Below, in pieces: positions 8,747 to 60,647 of a DNA stretch of 64,000 nt. The position numbers and the translations under genes were made by a program. Source of the DNA: Asticcacaulis excentricus (GTDB lineage: Bacteria; Pseudomonadota; Alphaproteobacteria; Caulobacterales; Caulobacteraceae). The notes beneath the pieces were generated by a model. The model did not search any database. It was given only the letters and a program-made list of their open reading frames with translations, and was not told the DNA's origin. The stretch is from positions 1-64,000 of the forward strand of contig NZ_AP018829.1 in the NCBI RefSeq assembly GCF_003966695.1, in the 5' to 3' direction. Every line of letters begins with the position of its first letter. Position 1 is the stretch's first letter.

Positions 8747-11095
8747 ATGCCGATTTCGCTTTCCCGTCGTCATCTGCTGCTCACGGCGGCGGCCACGGGT
8801 GCCTCGGTCGCCTTACCCGCTGTGTCGGCTGAGATGGCGCCCATCGACCGTGAGGCGCTGGTCCGCCGCCACAATCCGACCCTGAGCATGGTCGATCCGC
8901 ACGCACCGCTGATGTTGGGCAACGGGAATATCGGTTTTACGGCGGATATTACTGGGCTTCAGACCTTTATAGAGCCCTATTCGAAAATCGCGCCGCTTCT
9001 GACCGAGGCGCAATGGGCCTGGCACAGCTTCCCCAATCCGCAGGGCTACACGGTACGCGATACGCAGATCGAGATCGACGTGCGCGGGCAAAAGCGCCGC
9101 TACGGCTATATCAAAGACTGGGCCGAGGCCGCGAAGAACCCGGCGGTGGCGTGGATTCGTGAAAACCCGCATCGCTTCTCGCTGGGACGGCTGTCGCTGG
9201 ACCTACGGGCGAAGGACGGGACGCCCGCGCGCTTTGCCGACATCAAGGATACGCGGCAGACGCTCGACCTGTGGACCGGCACGCTGACCAGCCGCTTTGT
9301 CTATGACGGGGAGGTTGTGACGGTCGTGACCCGCGTCCTGCCCGACAGCGACACGATCATGGCTGAGGTCACCTCGGCTCTGGTGGCGCAGGGCCGTCTG
9401 GGCGTCGCCGTGCGTTTTCCCGGCGTGTCGAAGACGCTCAATCCCGATCCGTCGGACTGGACCAATCCGTCCGCCCACACCACGATTGAGATGTCTCGCA
9501 AGGCCGGTGAAGTGCGCCTGAAACGCCAGATCGACGCGACCATCTATCATGCCGCCATTGTCGCACCGGAGAGCGCTATCGAGGCCAGCGCGCCGCACAG
9601 CTATCGGGTCAGGGCGACAACCCCGACCCTGACAGTCATGGCGTCCTTTTCGCCTGATCCCCTTGCGGTCTTGCCACAGCCCGTTGCGGCCAAGGCGGCA
9701 ACTGAAACGCACTGGATCGACTATTGGTCGCAGGGCGGCATGGTCGATTTCAGTGGTTCGACCGACCCGCGCGCGCCGGAGCTGGAACGCCGGGTCATCC
9801 TGTCGCAATATCTGATGGCGGTGAATGCGGCCGGGGTCTTCCCGCCGCAGGAGGAGGGGCTGTTCTCCAATAGCTGGAACGGCAAGTCGCACCTTGAGAT
9901 GCACCCCTGGCATTCGGCGCACTTCGCCCTGTGGGGCCGGCCGCACCTGCTGGAAAAGAGCCTCGGCTGGTATGTGACCTTCCTGCCCAGGGCAAAGGCG
10001 CGCGCCGCCGAACAGGGGTTAAAAGGCGCGTGGTGGCCCAAGATGATCGGGCCGGATGGCGTCGATAGCCCGTCCAAGGTCTCACCCTTCATCATGTGGC
10101 AGCAGCCGCACCCCATCTATATGTGCGAACTTTTGTATCGGGCAGGCGACAGCGGACGCATCCTCAAAGCCTATGGCGAACTGGTCGAACAGAGCGCCGA
10201 CCTGCTGGCGTCCTTCCCCTATCTCGACGCACAGACGGGCATGTACCGTCTGGGCCCGCCGATCATTCCGGTGCAGGAGAATTTCGATCCGCTGACCACC
10301 TATGATCCGGCCTTTGAGGTGGCCTATTATCGCTGGGGCATCGAGACGGCGCAGGCGTGGCGCGAGCGGGCGGGCAAGGGCCGTCGCGCCGACTGGGACG
10401 CGGTTCTGGCCAAATGGCCCGACCTGCCGCACAAGGACGGCCTTTATCTGCCTGTGCGTTCTGAACCCGATTTCTGGGACAAGGCGGCGGGGGCGTGTAG
10501 ATCGAATGCGGTTGAGCCCATCCCGAAAAGTGTGAAGCGGTTTTCGGATTCAGATGGGCGACCAAATACACATTCGGAGCTTGCTCCGAATGAGGCGTGT
10601 CAGAACCGCGACCATCCGTCCTTCCTGATGCCGCTGGGCTGGCTGCCGGGTCGGGACGTCGATAAGCCAACCATGCGCCGGACGCTGGACCGTATGAAAC
10701 GCGACTGGGATTTGCGCCAGACCTGGGGCTGGGACTACGCCATGATCGCACTGACCGCCGCGCGGCTGAAGGCGCCGGACGAGGCGATTGACTGGCTGTT
10801 TTTCGAGGCCAAAAACAACCATTATGGCCAAAGCGGTATGACGCCGCGCGTGCATCTCGATGCCCACGCCGCGGCCTTTGTCCCGACGGCGACCGGGGCG
10901 GGCGTGCAAGGGGACGCAGGGCCCGACGGACCGGGCTATCAGCGCGCGGCGGAGACCTATTTCCCCTCGAACGGCAGCCTGTTGCTGGCTGTCGCCCTGA
11001 TGGCCGGCGGCTGGGACGGGCAGGGCGGGGCGGCCCCCGGCTTCCCCGGAAACGGCTGGCGTGTGCGGGTTGAAGGTATCCATCCGTCGCTGTGA
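8747..11095 (+). CDS. Six-hairpin glycosidase-like protein with in-frame palindromic insertion
   Basis: Putative periplasmic glycosidase of unassigned family. The ATG at 8747 begins a Tat-like signal (SLSRRHLLLTAAATGAS); a TTG start 24 bp earlier is less likely. Residues about 35-300 look like an N-terminal beta-sandwich (PLMLGNGNIGFTADITGLQT). Residues about 330-770 look like an (alpha/alpha)6 toroid with NSWNGKSHLEMHPWHSAHFA, reminiscent of GH65/GH95-type enzymes with a conserved E-M-HPWHS segment. Between GACR and CQNRDHPSFLMPLG the gene carries 102 extra bases (34 codons) that form hairpins and are flanked by a 7-bp direct repeat (see separate entry). The reading frame is kept. Whether the protein still folds is unknown. 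An IS lies 44 bp after the stop. Confidence 0.75.
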   Translation: MPISLSRRHLLLTAAATGASVALPAVSAEMAPIDREALVRRHNPTLSMVDPHAPLMLGNGNIGFTADITGLQTFIEPYSKIAPLLTEAQWAWHSFPNPQGYTVRDTQIEIDVRGQKRRYGYIKDWAEAAKNPAVAWIRENPHRFSLGRLSLDLRAKDGTPARFADIKDTRQTLDLWTGTLTSRFVYDGEVVTVVTRVLPDSDTIMAEVTSALVAQGRLGVAVRFPGVSKTLNPDPSDWTNPSAHTTIEMSRKAGEVRLKRQIDATIYHAAIVAPESAIEASAPHSYRVRATTPTLTVMASFSPDPLAVLPQPVAAKAATETHWIDYWSQGGMVDFSGSTDPRAPELERRVILSQYLMAVNAAGVFPPQEEGLFSNSWNGKSHLEMHPWHSAHFALWGRPHLLEKSLGWYVTFLPRAKARAAEQGLKGAWWPKMIGPDGVDSPSKVSPFIMWQQPHPIYMCELLYRAGDSGRILKAYGELVEQSADLLASFPYLDAQTGMYRLGPPIIPVQENFDPLTTYDPAFEVAYYRWGIETAQAWRERAGKGRRADWDAVLAKWPDLPHKDGLYLPVRSEPDFWDKAAGACRSNAVEPIPKSVKRFSDSDGRPNTHSELAPNEACQNRDHPSFLMPLGWLPGRDVDKPTMRRTLDRMKRDWDLRQTWGWDYAMIALTAARLKAPDEAIDWLFFEAKNNHYGQSGMTPRVHLDAHAAAFVPTATGAGVQGDAGPDGPGYQRAAETYFPSNGSLLLAVALMAGGWDGQGGAAPGFPGNGWRVRVEGIHPSL
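10492..10600 (+). repeat. Palindromic element inserted in frame in a glycosidase gene
   Basis: The direct repeat GGCGTGT occurs at 10492-10498 and 10594-10600. The 95 bp between holds two hairpins: CCGAAAA with TTTTCGG inside a CCCATC/GATGGG stem (about 10517-10558), and the perfect arms CATTCGGAGC / GCTCCGAATG (about 10571-10592). Insert plus one repeat equals 102 bp, exactly 34 codons, with no stop. Removing it joins AGA to CQNRDHPSF seamlessly. The first hairpin matches the core of the family A elements elsewhere in the window. The pattern resembles Rickettsia palindromic elements in coding genes. Confidence 0.8.
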
Positions 11096-13408: not shown

Positions 13409-13425
13409 GAGTGAGAGTCTCTGTG

Positions 13426-13531
13426 TTAGAGCAAATTTCGTTCAGGTTGAAACGAAATTCCGCTCTAATACTTTGTTTTGTCGCGCATTTGATTCCGAAA
13501 ACCGCTGCACACTTTTCGGAATGCGCTCTAA
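13426..13531 (+). repeat. Family A palindromic element, copy 1 (supplies a stop codon)
   Basis: 106 bp bounded by TTAGAGC and GCTCTAA. The first half is a hairpin (AAATTTCGTT / AACGAAATT). The second half carries TTTGTTTTGTCGCG and the core CCGAAAACCGCT...CACACTTTTCGG. The right end overlaps the GH2 gene: the TAG stop (13528-13530, minus strand) is part of the element's terminal repeat. Confidence 0.8.
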
Positions 13532-39000: not shown

Positions 39001-39186
39001 GCGGCGGCCCGTGGTCAGCTCGATATGTCGGCGTCCTACAATGTCAGCGATCGCATAACGGTGTCGCTGGATGCGTACAACCTGACCAATTCCTACCGTA
39101 AGGAATACCAGGGTGACGAACGTATGATCCGTCAGATCGACTATGATGGCCGCACGATCACGGCAACGGTGCGTGCGACCTTCTAG
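36070..39186 (+). CDS. TonB-dependent receptor
   Basis: Outer-membrane oligosaccharide transporter, 1038 aa. The signal peptide ends ATAYAQ. The TonB-box-like DVTEVVVTGFKRSVADAVRAKR is followed by the plug (FPDLNVGEALQRIPGIQINR, IGLRGMPGYYARTTLNGQAF). The barrel ends RTITATVRATF. It is the first receptor on the plus strand, flanked by GH28-like/SUMF1 and GH29 genes. The stop codon TAG is part of a family A repeat inserted exactly at CTAG, and a strong terminator lies beyond the repeat. Cargo is unknown; fucosylated or galacturonate-containing fragments are plausible from the neighbours (inference). Confidence 0.93.
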   Translation: MKEGAKLRGTGFRSALLGATVLMSMGATAYAQDAKPAAGGDVTEVVVTGFKRSVADAVRAKRNNIEISDGISSDGLGRFPDLNVGEALQRIPGIQINRESEGRNANIGLRGMPGYYARTTLNGQAFADPPYLETTGGADGTPMGAFNSDIFSAFSVQKSPMANSQSGGLSGNIDMQIAPALSRKDGGFVKGSYERNSLGGLGAPSATFGYNKHINSDFAVFGVLAIRKENFRRDTLRFNGYSRLGLLNSGLTKQQFADKYGAYYSSSATTCATDQTCGLSAVLGTDGYTAPSNVGSLAQGGVWSLGLMRQYTRMNVGTLITGSGGAEWRVNENLKVGVVGYYSERDLPDTVQYWQLNEPYMLNATATSSSTPYSIVTGLSTPVVMSNGYAVMEKTQVTNFDAKASTRMFSQRQAAEGIVANADWTNEKWKLSTVLTLTKSSNRSLETEADLRTIGNTKEGGANTLTRTLNTGFGDLDGYSQVVSPQPQNAIFAMPFYQAPSVNDYKAGYWNWTSSAPTDLFSADSRYILHVAGTHRYADKTVESLQFDVDRTLDFGPLSNIAAGVRKEKNTYKMSGVRNMVYGIQSQNVTSSMLIKSPSADDFMEGNANINSNWYVIDPKPFLSAITPVKQYANGGLSELGFNIFYADGGFSGSNFEITNELLEAYVQAKFDTQVLGRRLRGNIGVRSETTDYTAQTLDRTARVTSNGGVGALADYTWNTYKSSYDHLLPSAIAVYDVRDDMVVRAAYYKTYVRPDPRTSSPVQTYSYATNNQSSGTNSIIDVTVNFAGNRLKPYTADSYDLSWEWYNRPNGLISVAYFRKKLSNRIASIADLSIICPADGGGWGFGPLTWDGTRCSAPSASTVVNGVPTSYNVIGSGQYNVSDPTYVSGLEFNIQQNFDFLPGFWKNFGGSLNYAFTQAKQRGKGAAAVPFPGISKFNYNAILYYETPKFGVRAVYNWRSEYNLDGQGTYYGAARNAAARGQLDMSASYNVSDRITVSLDAYNLTNSYRKEYQGDERMIRQIDYDGRTITATVRATF

Positions 39187-39287
39187 AGCGTAAGCCGATA
39201 AAGTGGGCACCACTTTTCGGAAAAATTGCGCGATAAAACAAAACCTAGAGCCATTCGGCGGCTCAACTTAACCGACGAATGCTCTAG
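39183..39287 (-). repeat. Family A palindromic element, copy 3 (supplies a stop codon)
   Basis: 105 bp with CTAG at both ends (39183-39186, 39284-39287). It contains AAAGTGGGCACCACTTTTCGG, ATAAAACAAAACC and an end hairpin AGAGC...GCTCT. The first CTAG contains the TAG stop of the TonB receptor gene; the same end of the element faces the stop codon as in copy 1. Confidence 0.8.
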
Positions 39288-60541: not shown

Positions 60542-60647
60542 CTAGAGCGGGATGATTTTAAATGGAAGCATCATCCCGCTCTAAATTTTTGTTTTATCGT
60601 GATATTTTTGTCGAAAATCGCTCACACTTTTCGACATAACGCTCTAG
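60542..60647 (+). repeat. Family A palindromic element, copy 4
   Basis: 106 bp with CTAG at both ends (60542-60545, 60644-60647). Hairpin 1 is AGCGGGATGAT/ATCATCCCGCT, followed by TTTTTGTTTTATCG and the core TCGAAAATCGCTCACACTTTTCGA. It marks the exact 5' edge of the IS481 transposase remnant. Confidence 0.85.

Follow-up and report, generated by a model that had tools for sequence, protein, structure and literature searches.

In-frame palindromes inside working genes have been known above all from Rickettsia, with its reduced genomes, where they are described as RPEs (PMC10969869, PMC2229807; both consulted in part). REPs occur inside ORFs of several species, DNA-repair genes among them, according to the sections consulted of PMC3733652, and the available portions of PMC2229807 also place ERIC and other MITEs in ORFs. 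Thus, on the precedent of the RPEs and of REPs in ORFs, in-frame palindromes are already known. CIR elements are reported in the consulted sections of PMC10969869 to be strictly intergenic, and an unpublished remark by the author in the part seen of PMC2229807 states that they have stops in all six frames. In a literature search that covered mainly open-access papers, we found no report of in-frame elements of the CIR/RIME-like class in Caulobacterales genes. Here, an element probably of this class, described as strictly intergenic, reads through genes for core enzymes: HisF and HisH (two subunits of one enzyme), the DNA-repair proteins RuvC and probably AddA, and MetE.

The DNA analyzed (the window) comprises the first 64,000 nucleotides of the 291-kb contig C3. 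The genome has 3.79 Mb, and homologues of the window assign it to Asticcacaulis. This source genome is labeled G000; other G numbers are related genomes and L numbers are loci. The features in and around the insertion are the following.

8747-11095, + strand: host gene for a glycoside-hydrolase-65-like protein of 782 aa (named from the source titles of relatives)
10492-10498, + strand: GGCGTGT, host sequence and no insertion boundary by comparison with L035
10514-10588, + strand: insertion of 75 bp (25 codons), preceded by a GTT codon and followed by the native AAT GAG codons
10514-10566, + strand: palindrome 1 (P1), a 53-position core with a two-part bulged stem, frame 0 reading EPIPKSVKRFSDSDGRP(N), covariance-model score 78.1 bits
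10571-10592, + strand: second hairpin, CATTCGGAGC-TT-GCTCCGAATG, whose final 4 bases (AATG, 10589-10592) are host sequence
10594-10600, + strand: GGCGTGT, host sequence and no insertion boundary by comparison with L035

A sequence-only reading of this gene had proposed a 95-bp insert of 34 codons bordered by the two GGCGTGT direct repeats. Sequence and homologue comparison confirm that the gene contains an extra in-frame, stop-free stretch, but the true gain is the 75 bp (25 codons) listed above. In a blastn comparison of the window with the insert-free locus L035, the unaligned part is exactly 10514-10588, and L035 positions 5767/5768 are adjacent. Both repeats are host sequence, with their places present in L035 as GGCGTGC and GACGTGC. 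Removing 34 codons to obtain the proposed seamless enzyme (AGA-CQNRDHPSF) would delete nine native residues. The empty site in fact holds nine residues in the closer homologues (AGxC[RKQ]SxAxxExCQNRDH or nearly so) and also in more distant ones (CRxHA..QCKNRDH). Duplication of a TGAG target at this insert was rejected, since the ancestral gene would then have had one codon fewer than the homologues have. No Pfam domain was found in the 782-aa product.

Alignment with homologues gives the clean insertion that had been anticipated, with a length of 25 rather than 34 residues. The extra segment occurs in 2 of 16 aligned proteins, the window product and P0002 (MAG Asticcacaulis sp., 95% identical); apart from P0002, the 25 residues are absent from the homologues aligned (14 of 15). 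Of 81 homologous loci examined, a motif search located the site in 38, and 37 of these lack the insert, the filled one being L034 (MAG W46). Among 17 matching sequences from 15 Asticcacaulis genomes the window-gene insert was found in G000 and G014 only, and among the orthologues compared it is common only to the window gene and G014/MAG W46. A native 34-residue loop of the enzyme family, or an assembly error, can be given next to no credence. Nine of the 34 residues are indeed native and are carried by homologues, but the homologues do not have the other 25, and MAG W46, a separately made assembly, is filled and has its own substitutions in the insert.

The two hairpins that had been described hold up, with a fold of -42.3 kcal/mol (z -3.32) that none of 200 shuffles equaled in stability. 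The AATG that completes the second hairpin is present at the L035 empty site. P1 of the window gene contains a GANTC (CcrM-type) site at 10547-10551, and no Rfam family reached its gathering score within the window.

The first hairpin is, as had been supposed, a genome-wide repeat, with 42 matches at the blastn level and at least 136 by a covariance model. Built from 26 copies, this model has 53 positions and a bulged stem whose two helices contribute 7 and 10 of its 17 pairs. The 136 copies in G000 are a lower bound because 150 of 2337 candidates were scored. All 25 Asticcacaulis genomes contain model matches, from 29 to at least 150 each. Among 113 distinct aligned copies (rows counted from 133 matches at 89 loci, some overlapping), 97.8% of cells are paired and 12 of the 17 pairs have changed on both sides, whereas sliding the pairing partners lowers pairing to at most 50.4%. 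The arms vary yet pair; therefore, several self-complementary stem subfamilies coexist. Three further copies were scored in the window.

13424-13528, - strand: complete intergenic copy of 105 bp, P1 plus a AAAACAAAGTA A-rich linker plus P2 (palindrome 2), with GAGC...GCTC ends and flanked by TA
39186-39238, + strand: diverged P1 copy, 39.4 bits, not called intragenic
60592-60644, - strand: diverged P1 copy, 28.3 bits, not called intragenic

A. excentricus pASTEX01 (L031) lacks the 105-bp copy at the orthologous position. The filled sequence (CATTA, then GAGC...GCTC, then TAAC) compared with the empty one (CATTAAGTC) fits a TA duplication and GAGC/GCTC ends at this one intergenic site, and full copies end in ..GCTCTAA-type sequence. 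The second hairpin of the window gene is probably a shortened P2 that has kept GAGC..GCTC. TA lies directly 5' of 68 of the 136 copies, compared with 2.4% TA in the flanks. With two registers allowed, TA precedes 74 of 128 other copies and none of the eight intragenic ones (Fisher p 0.0014), so intragenic copies may have entered by another route or lost their ends. GANTC is found in 30 of the 136 cores, and within the GGTTTTCGG subset in 19 of 34; the composition of the flanks predicts 0.077 per core. Each of the core frames is open in 74-122 of 125 copies, an analysis that took 125 of the 136 cores and left out the longer ones.

As far as a comparison by description goes, the family resembles the RPEs in being a palindrome of similar size order, in frame in unrelated working genes, whose presence varies between species. 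It differs from those Rickettsia elements in its genus, in a 3.8-Mb genome and in that 128 of 136 copies are not called intragenic. The likeness to RPEs drawn by the sequence-only reading was apt for the in-frame palindromic insertion, which is moreover recurrent, and wrong for its borders. With CIR as described, the family shares an alphaproteobacterial setting, inverted-repeat hairpins and TA at the ends, and perhaps also GANTC in a subset; unlike CIR, the Asticcacaulis family has mostly open core frames, and 8 of 136 copies are coding. The family may also resemble the RIME elements of rhizobia. Plasmids of Rhizobium, Agrobacterium and relatives contain an identical copy of 26-27 bases of the P1 core, and those of Ochrobactrum and Bartonella have the complete P1+P2 arrangement at ~76-77% identity. 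Among six named Caulobacteraceae outside Asticcacaulis, C. vibrioides OR37 (the L071 genome) has 53 weaker matches and Caulobacter Root343 has 3; the element model found no match in C. segnis FS, in Phenylobacterium deserti or in two Brevundimonas genomes.

The CGTC/GTAG REPs are also small palindromes found in frame in ORFs (PMC3733652, in the part consulted). They measure 20-40 bp, with one stem (8-9 bp in the CGTC types) and a CGTC/GTAG tag, and the GTAG type is tied to a RAYT. P1, by contrast, spans 53 positions, its bulged stem has 7+10 pairs, and G000 is without a RAYT-type transposase. The GAGC/GCTC ends and the TA on both sides relative to the L031 empty site recall TA-targeting MITEs, a likeness seen at one site and not for the intragenic copies.

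We consider it likely (a probability of roughly 0.85) that the insert is a copy of a non-autonomous palindromic mobile element, made of P1 and P2 hairpins and of an alphaproteobacterial CIR/RIME-like kind, that is spreading in Asticcacaulis and is retained where its peptide is tolerated. This accounts for presence and absence relative to orthologues, in-frame status, family membership and paired arms, all of which are observed. The element would spread mostly into intergenic DNA, often at TA dinucleotides. As the core is stop-free in most frames, an in-frame landing in a tolerant loop would add a short peptide. Where the protein keeps working, the tolerated copy would be retained, and other copies would be purged. 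The insert peptide would be translated as part of the enzyme, and host proteins presumably contain the element's translation as an extra loop.

The element also lies inside other CDSs. G000 has eight in-frame intragenic copies in seven genes (the glycosidase-like gene, hisF, hisH, a 3-hydroxyisobutyryl-CoA hydrolase gene with two copies, addA, a DUF58 gene and the 3' end of ruvC), and related genomes add further host genes. Copies were assessed by a six-frame codon score on both flanks of all 136, with an open frame required, and by reading the proteins. The automatic test flagged seven, of which one was dropped and to which two were added. The copy dropped (C1:2116478) is antisense and lies 15 codons past the upstream stop of its frame, and the start may follow the element. 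The copy in addA was added since its right-flank score is just under the threshold and orthologues confirm it, and that at the ruvC 3' end has a stop 6 codons past the element. The names addA and dnaE2 (below) come from domains and reading, and the ruvC family match was scanned in the G012 copy rather than in that of G000.

All eight intragenic copies are in sense orientation, where the open frames of 125 cores predict 46% sense (p ~0.002, with two copies sharing a gene); keeping C1:2116478 would make this 8 of 9. Frame 0 (PKSxxRFS or close) is used by five of the eight and frame 2 (EKWEPVFG or close) by three. The mean hydropathy (GRAVY) is -1.37 for sense frame 0, the most hydrophilic, and -0.38 for frame 2; the unused sense frame 1 and antisense frame 0 have -1.15 and -0.41. 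Since frame 2 is used and frame 1 is not, hydrophilicity accounts for frame use in part only.

Hairpin byps of yeast mitochondria are inserts that are skipped. Ribosome bypassing or RNA removal could likewise keep the insert out of the protein here, and the strong hairpins in several genes would suit such skipping. We regard it as very improbable: all seven measured gains are free of stops and have lengths divisible by three, a regularity for which skipping gives no need. In addition, none of the six same-strand-flanked copies without an open frame splits a gene. Among these six alone could frame-breaking copies appear, given the open-frame requirement; inspection by eye placed one at the ruvC end and five between gene ends. 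The ruvCAB region of G000 (C1:1153876-1154673; L010, L113) has three copies, one coding for the RuvC end and a tandem pair separating ruvA from ruvB.

Empty-site orthologues exist in the genus for seven of the eight intragenic copies. The hisH gain of 81 bp is present in 1 of 24 genomes, and the close relative G014 has the site empty. In hisF it is 54 bp (G000, G004, G006) or 60 bp (G014 and the distant G003), that is 18 or 20 codons, in 5 of 24 genomes. The hydrolase gene has gained 54 bp at site 1 (G000, G014 and G012; 3 of 22) and 57 bp at site 2 (G000, G014 and G018; 3 of 22). The addA insert (54 bp) is filled in G000 and G014 among 25 genomes, and that of the DUF58 gene (60 bp) in G000, G004 and G015 among 8. 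The seven measured gains add 18-27 residues. Presence is patchy, with the DUF58 site filled in G000, G004 and G015 and not in G014, and hisF filled also in distant G003, and we count this against the element reading. A tree of hisH+hisA+hisF did not resolve G000, G004, G006, G014 and G018, so that the pattern among these five may reflect gains or losses; it places G003 in another, well supported clade. Such filled and empty alleles, in sister species of a genus with cultured members, make it possible to ask directly if mobile palindromes are a source of new protein loops or just persist in genes. They also call for caution, as core-gene insertions in Asticcacaulis can be element-derived.

Further host genes came from a search with the frame-0 peptide model, which says nothing on frame usage. 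They are genes for an amine-oxidase-type FAD protein, a DNA polymerase III alpha-type protein (probably dnaE2), panE and a GST-like protein in G001, ubiD in G004 and metE in G017. Among the matches listed, 26 candidates were tested, 20 chosen for long open frames and 6 at loci already in the dataset. Four are coding on both sides, five on the left only (three ruvC, two accepted as internal on account of protein family matches to the left and right) and 17 were not accepted. In panE and the GST-like gene, reading continues through P2. Of the six genes, metE alone was compared with an insert-free relative, and in an alignment of MetE with a solved structure the insert coincides with a gap; in most other hosts, the insert would lie in a surface loop. 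Junction cases are the ruvC end (G000, G004, G006, G012) and the rsmG start (G014). Just before or at the rsmG start, a copy in G000 (C1:1898364, L177) and in G014 (L354) may encode an N-terminal extension of RsmG.

Sequence change within the inserts bears on whether the peptide matters. Between G000 and G006 the hisF insert has 4 changes in 12.7 synonymous sites and none in 38.3 replacement sites, and this synonymous-only change supports translation. It could also suggest that the inserted peptide has been recruited and improves or regulates the enzyme, as could the fact that separate lineages have the same loops filled (for hisF, G003 and the G000 group; for hydrolase site 1, G012 and G000/G014) and the presence of other inserts at both loops in G019. 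Recruitment nevertheless seems improbable. The hisF insert shows 2 synonymous changes and 1 replacement between G000 and G004, and 7.5 replacement versus 5.5 synonymous changes between G003 and G000, where the loop part differs freely; the inserts of hisH, addA and the window gene are too recent to allow a judgment, and the host genes have no obvious function in common. The G019 inserts at the HisF loop and the hydrolase loop (L222, L254) are unrelated or decayed, that of L254 giving a weak element-model match (25 bits).

Alternatively, the hairpin could have a job as DNA or RNA in the gene or its mRNA (processing, translation pausing or GANTC methylation), so that coding copies are selected and not merely tolerated. 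The arms stay complementary while the sequence varies, coding copies included, and in hisF the arms CCCCTC/GAGGGG are identical between G000 and G003 and the loop is different. Two inserts are more conserved than their flanks: that of the DUF58 gene between G000 and G015 (48/48 identical, flanks 133/150 and 118/150) and hydrolase site 2 between G000 and G018 (56/57, flanks 126/150 and 131/150). Plain neutrality does not predict this; at some sites the hairpin may have a role, or the insert may have spread laterally in recent times. Against a DNA or RNA job, the hisF insert between G000 and G006 changes at about the flank rate (47/51, flanks 139/150 and 134/150), and between G000 and G014 the addA insert (46/48) and the window-gene insert (73/75) are close to their flanks; hisF left-flank identities with G014 and G003 were ignored, being out of register by the 2-codon length difference. 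In addition, GANTC is restricted to the minority of cores counted above, presence is patchy, and matching arms may merely reflect origin from different intact subfamilies. On balance we hold such a job to be unlikely. Equally unlikely is the combined proposal that coding copies are doubly coded, their arms staying complementary in working genes because the hairpin acts in DNA or mRNA, and that insertion is directed to the same HisF and hydrolase loops in separate lineages. A tolerated mobile element, whose coding copies would be nearly neutral, remains our preferred reading.

The element would be mobilized by a transposase acting in trans. A RAYT was rejected as the mover, as G000 has no Y1/RAYT transposase (no PF01797). 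Two DDE_3 (IS630-type) ORFs lie at C1:2139927-2143035 of G000 (L361, L362). Inspection of the IS630-type ORFs in G000 demonstrated neither matching ends nor a link to the element. Around one DDE_3 ORF there is a 51-nt inverted-repeat pair with GGGCTCT/TTAGAGCCC, reminiscent of the element ends. Some copies of the family carry a palindrome within the palindrome, a nested hairpin of ~20 nt (GGCTTCGCCGAACTCCGTTTCGG type) in the P1 loop, seen in the G000 copies L027-L029, L112, L115, L119 and L192 and at the end of L034.
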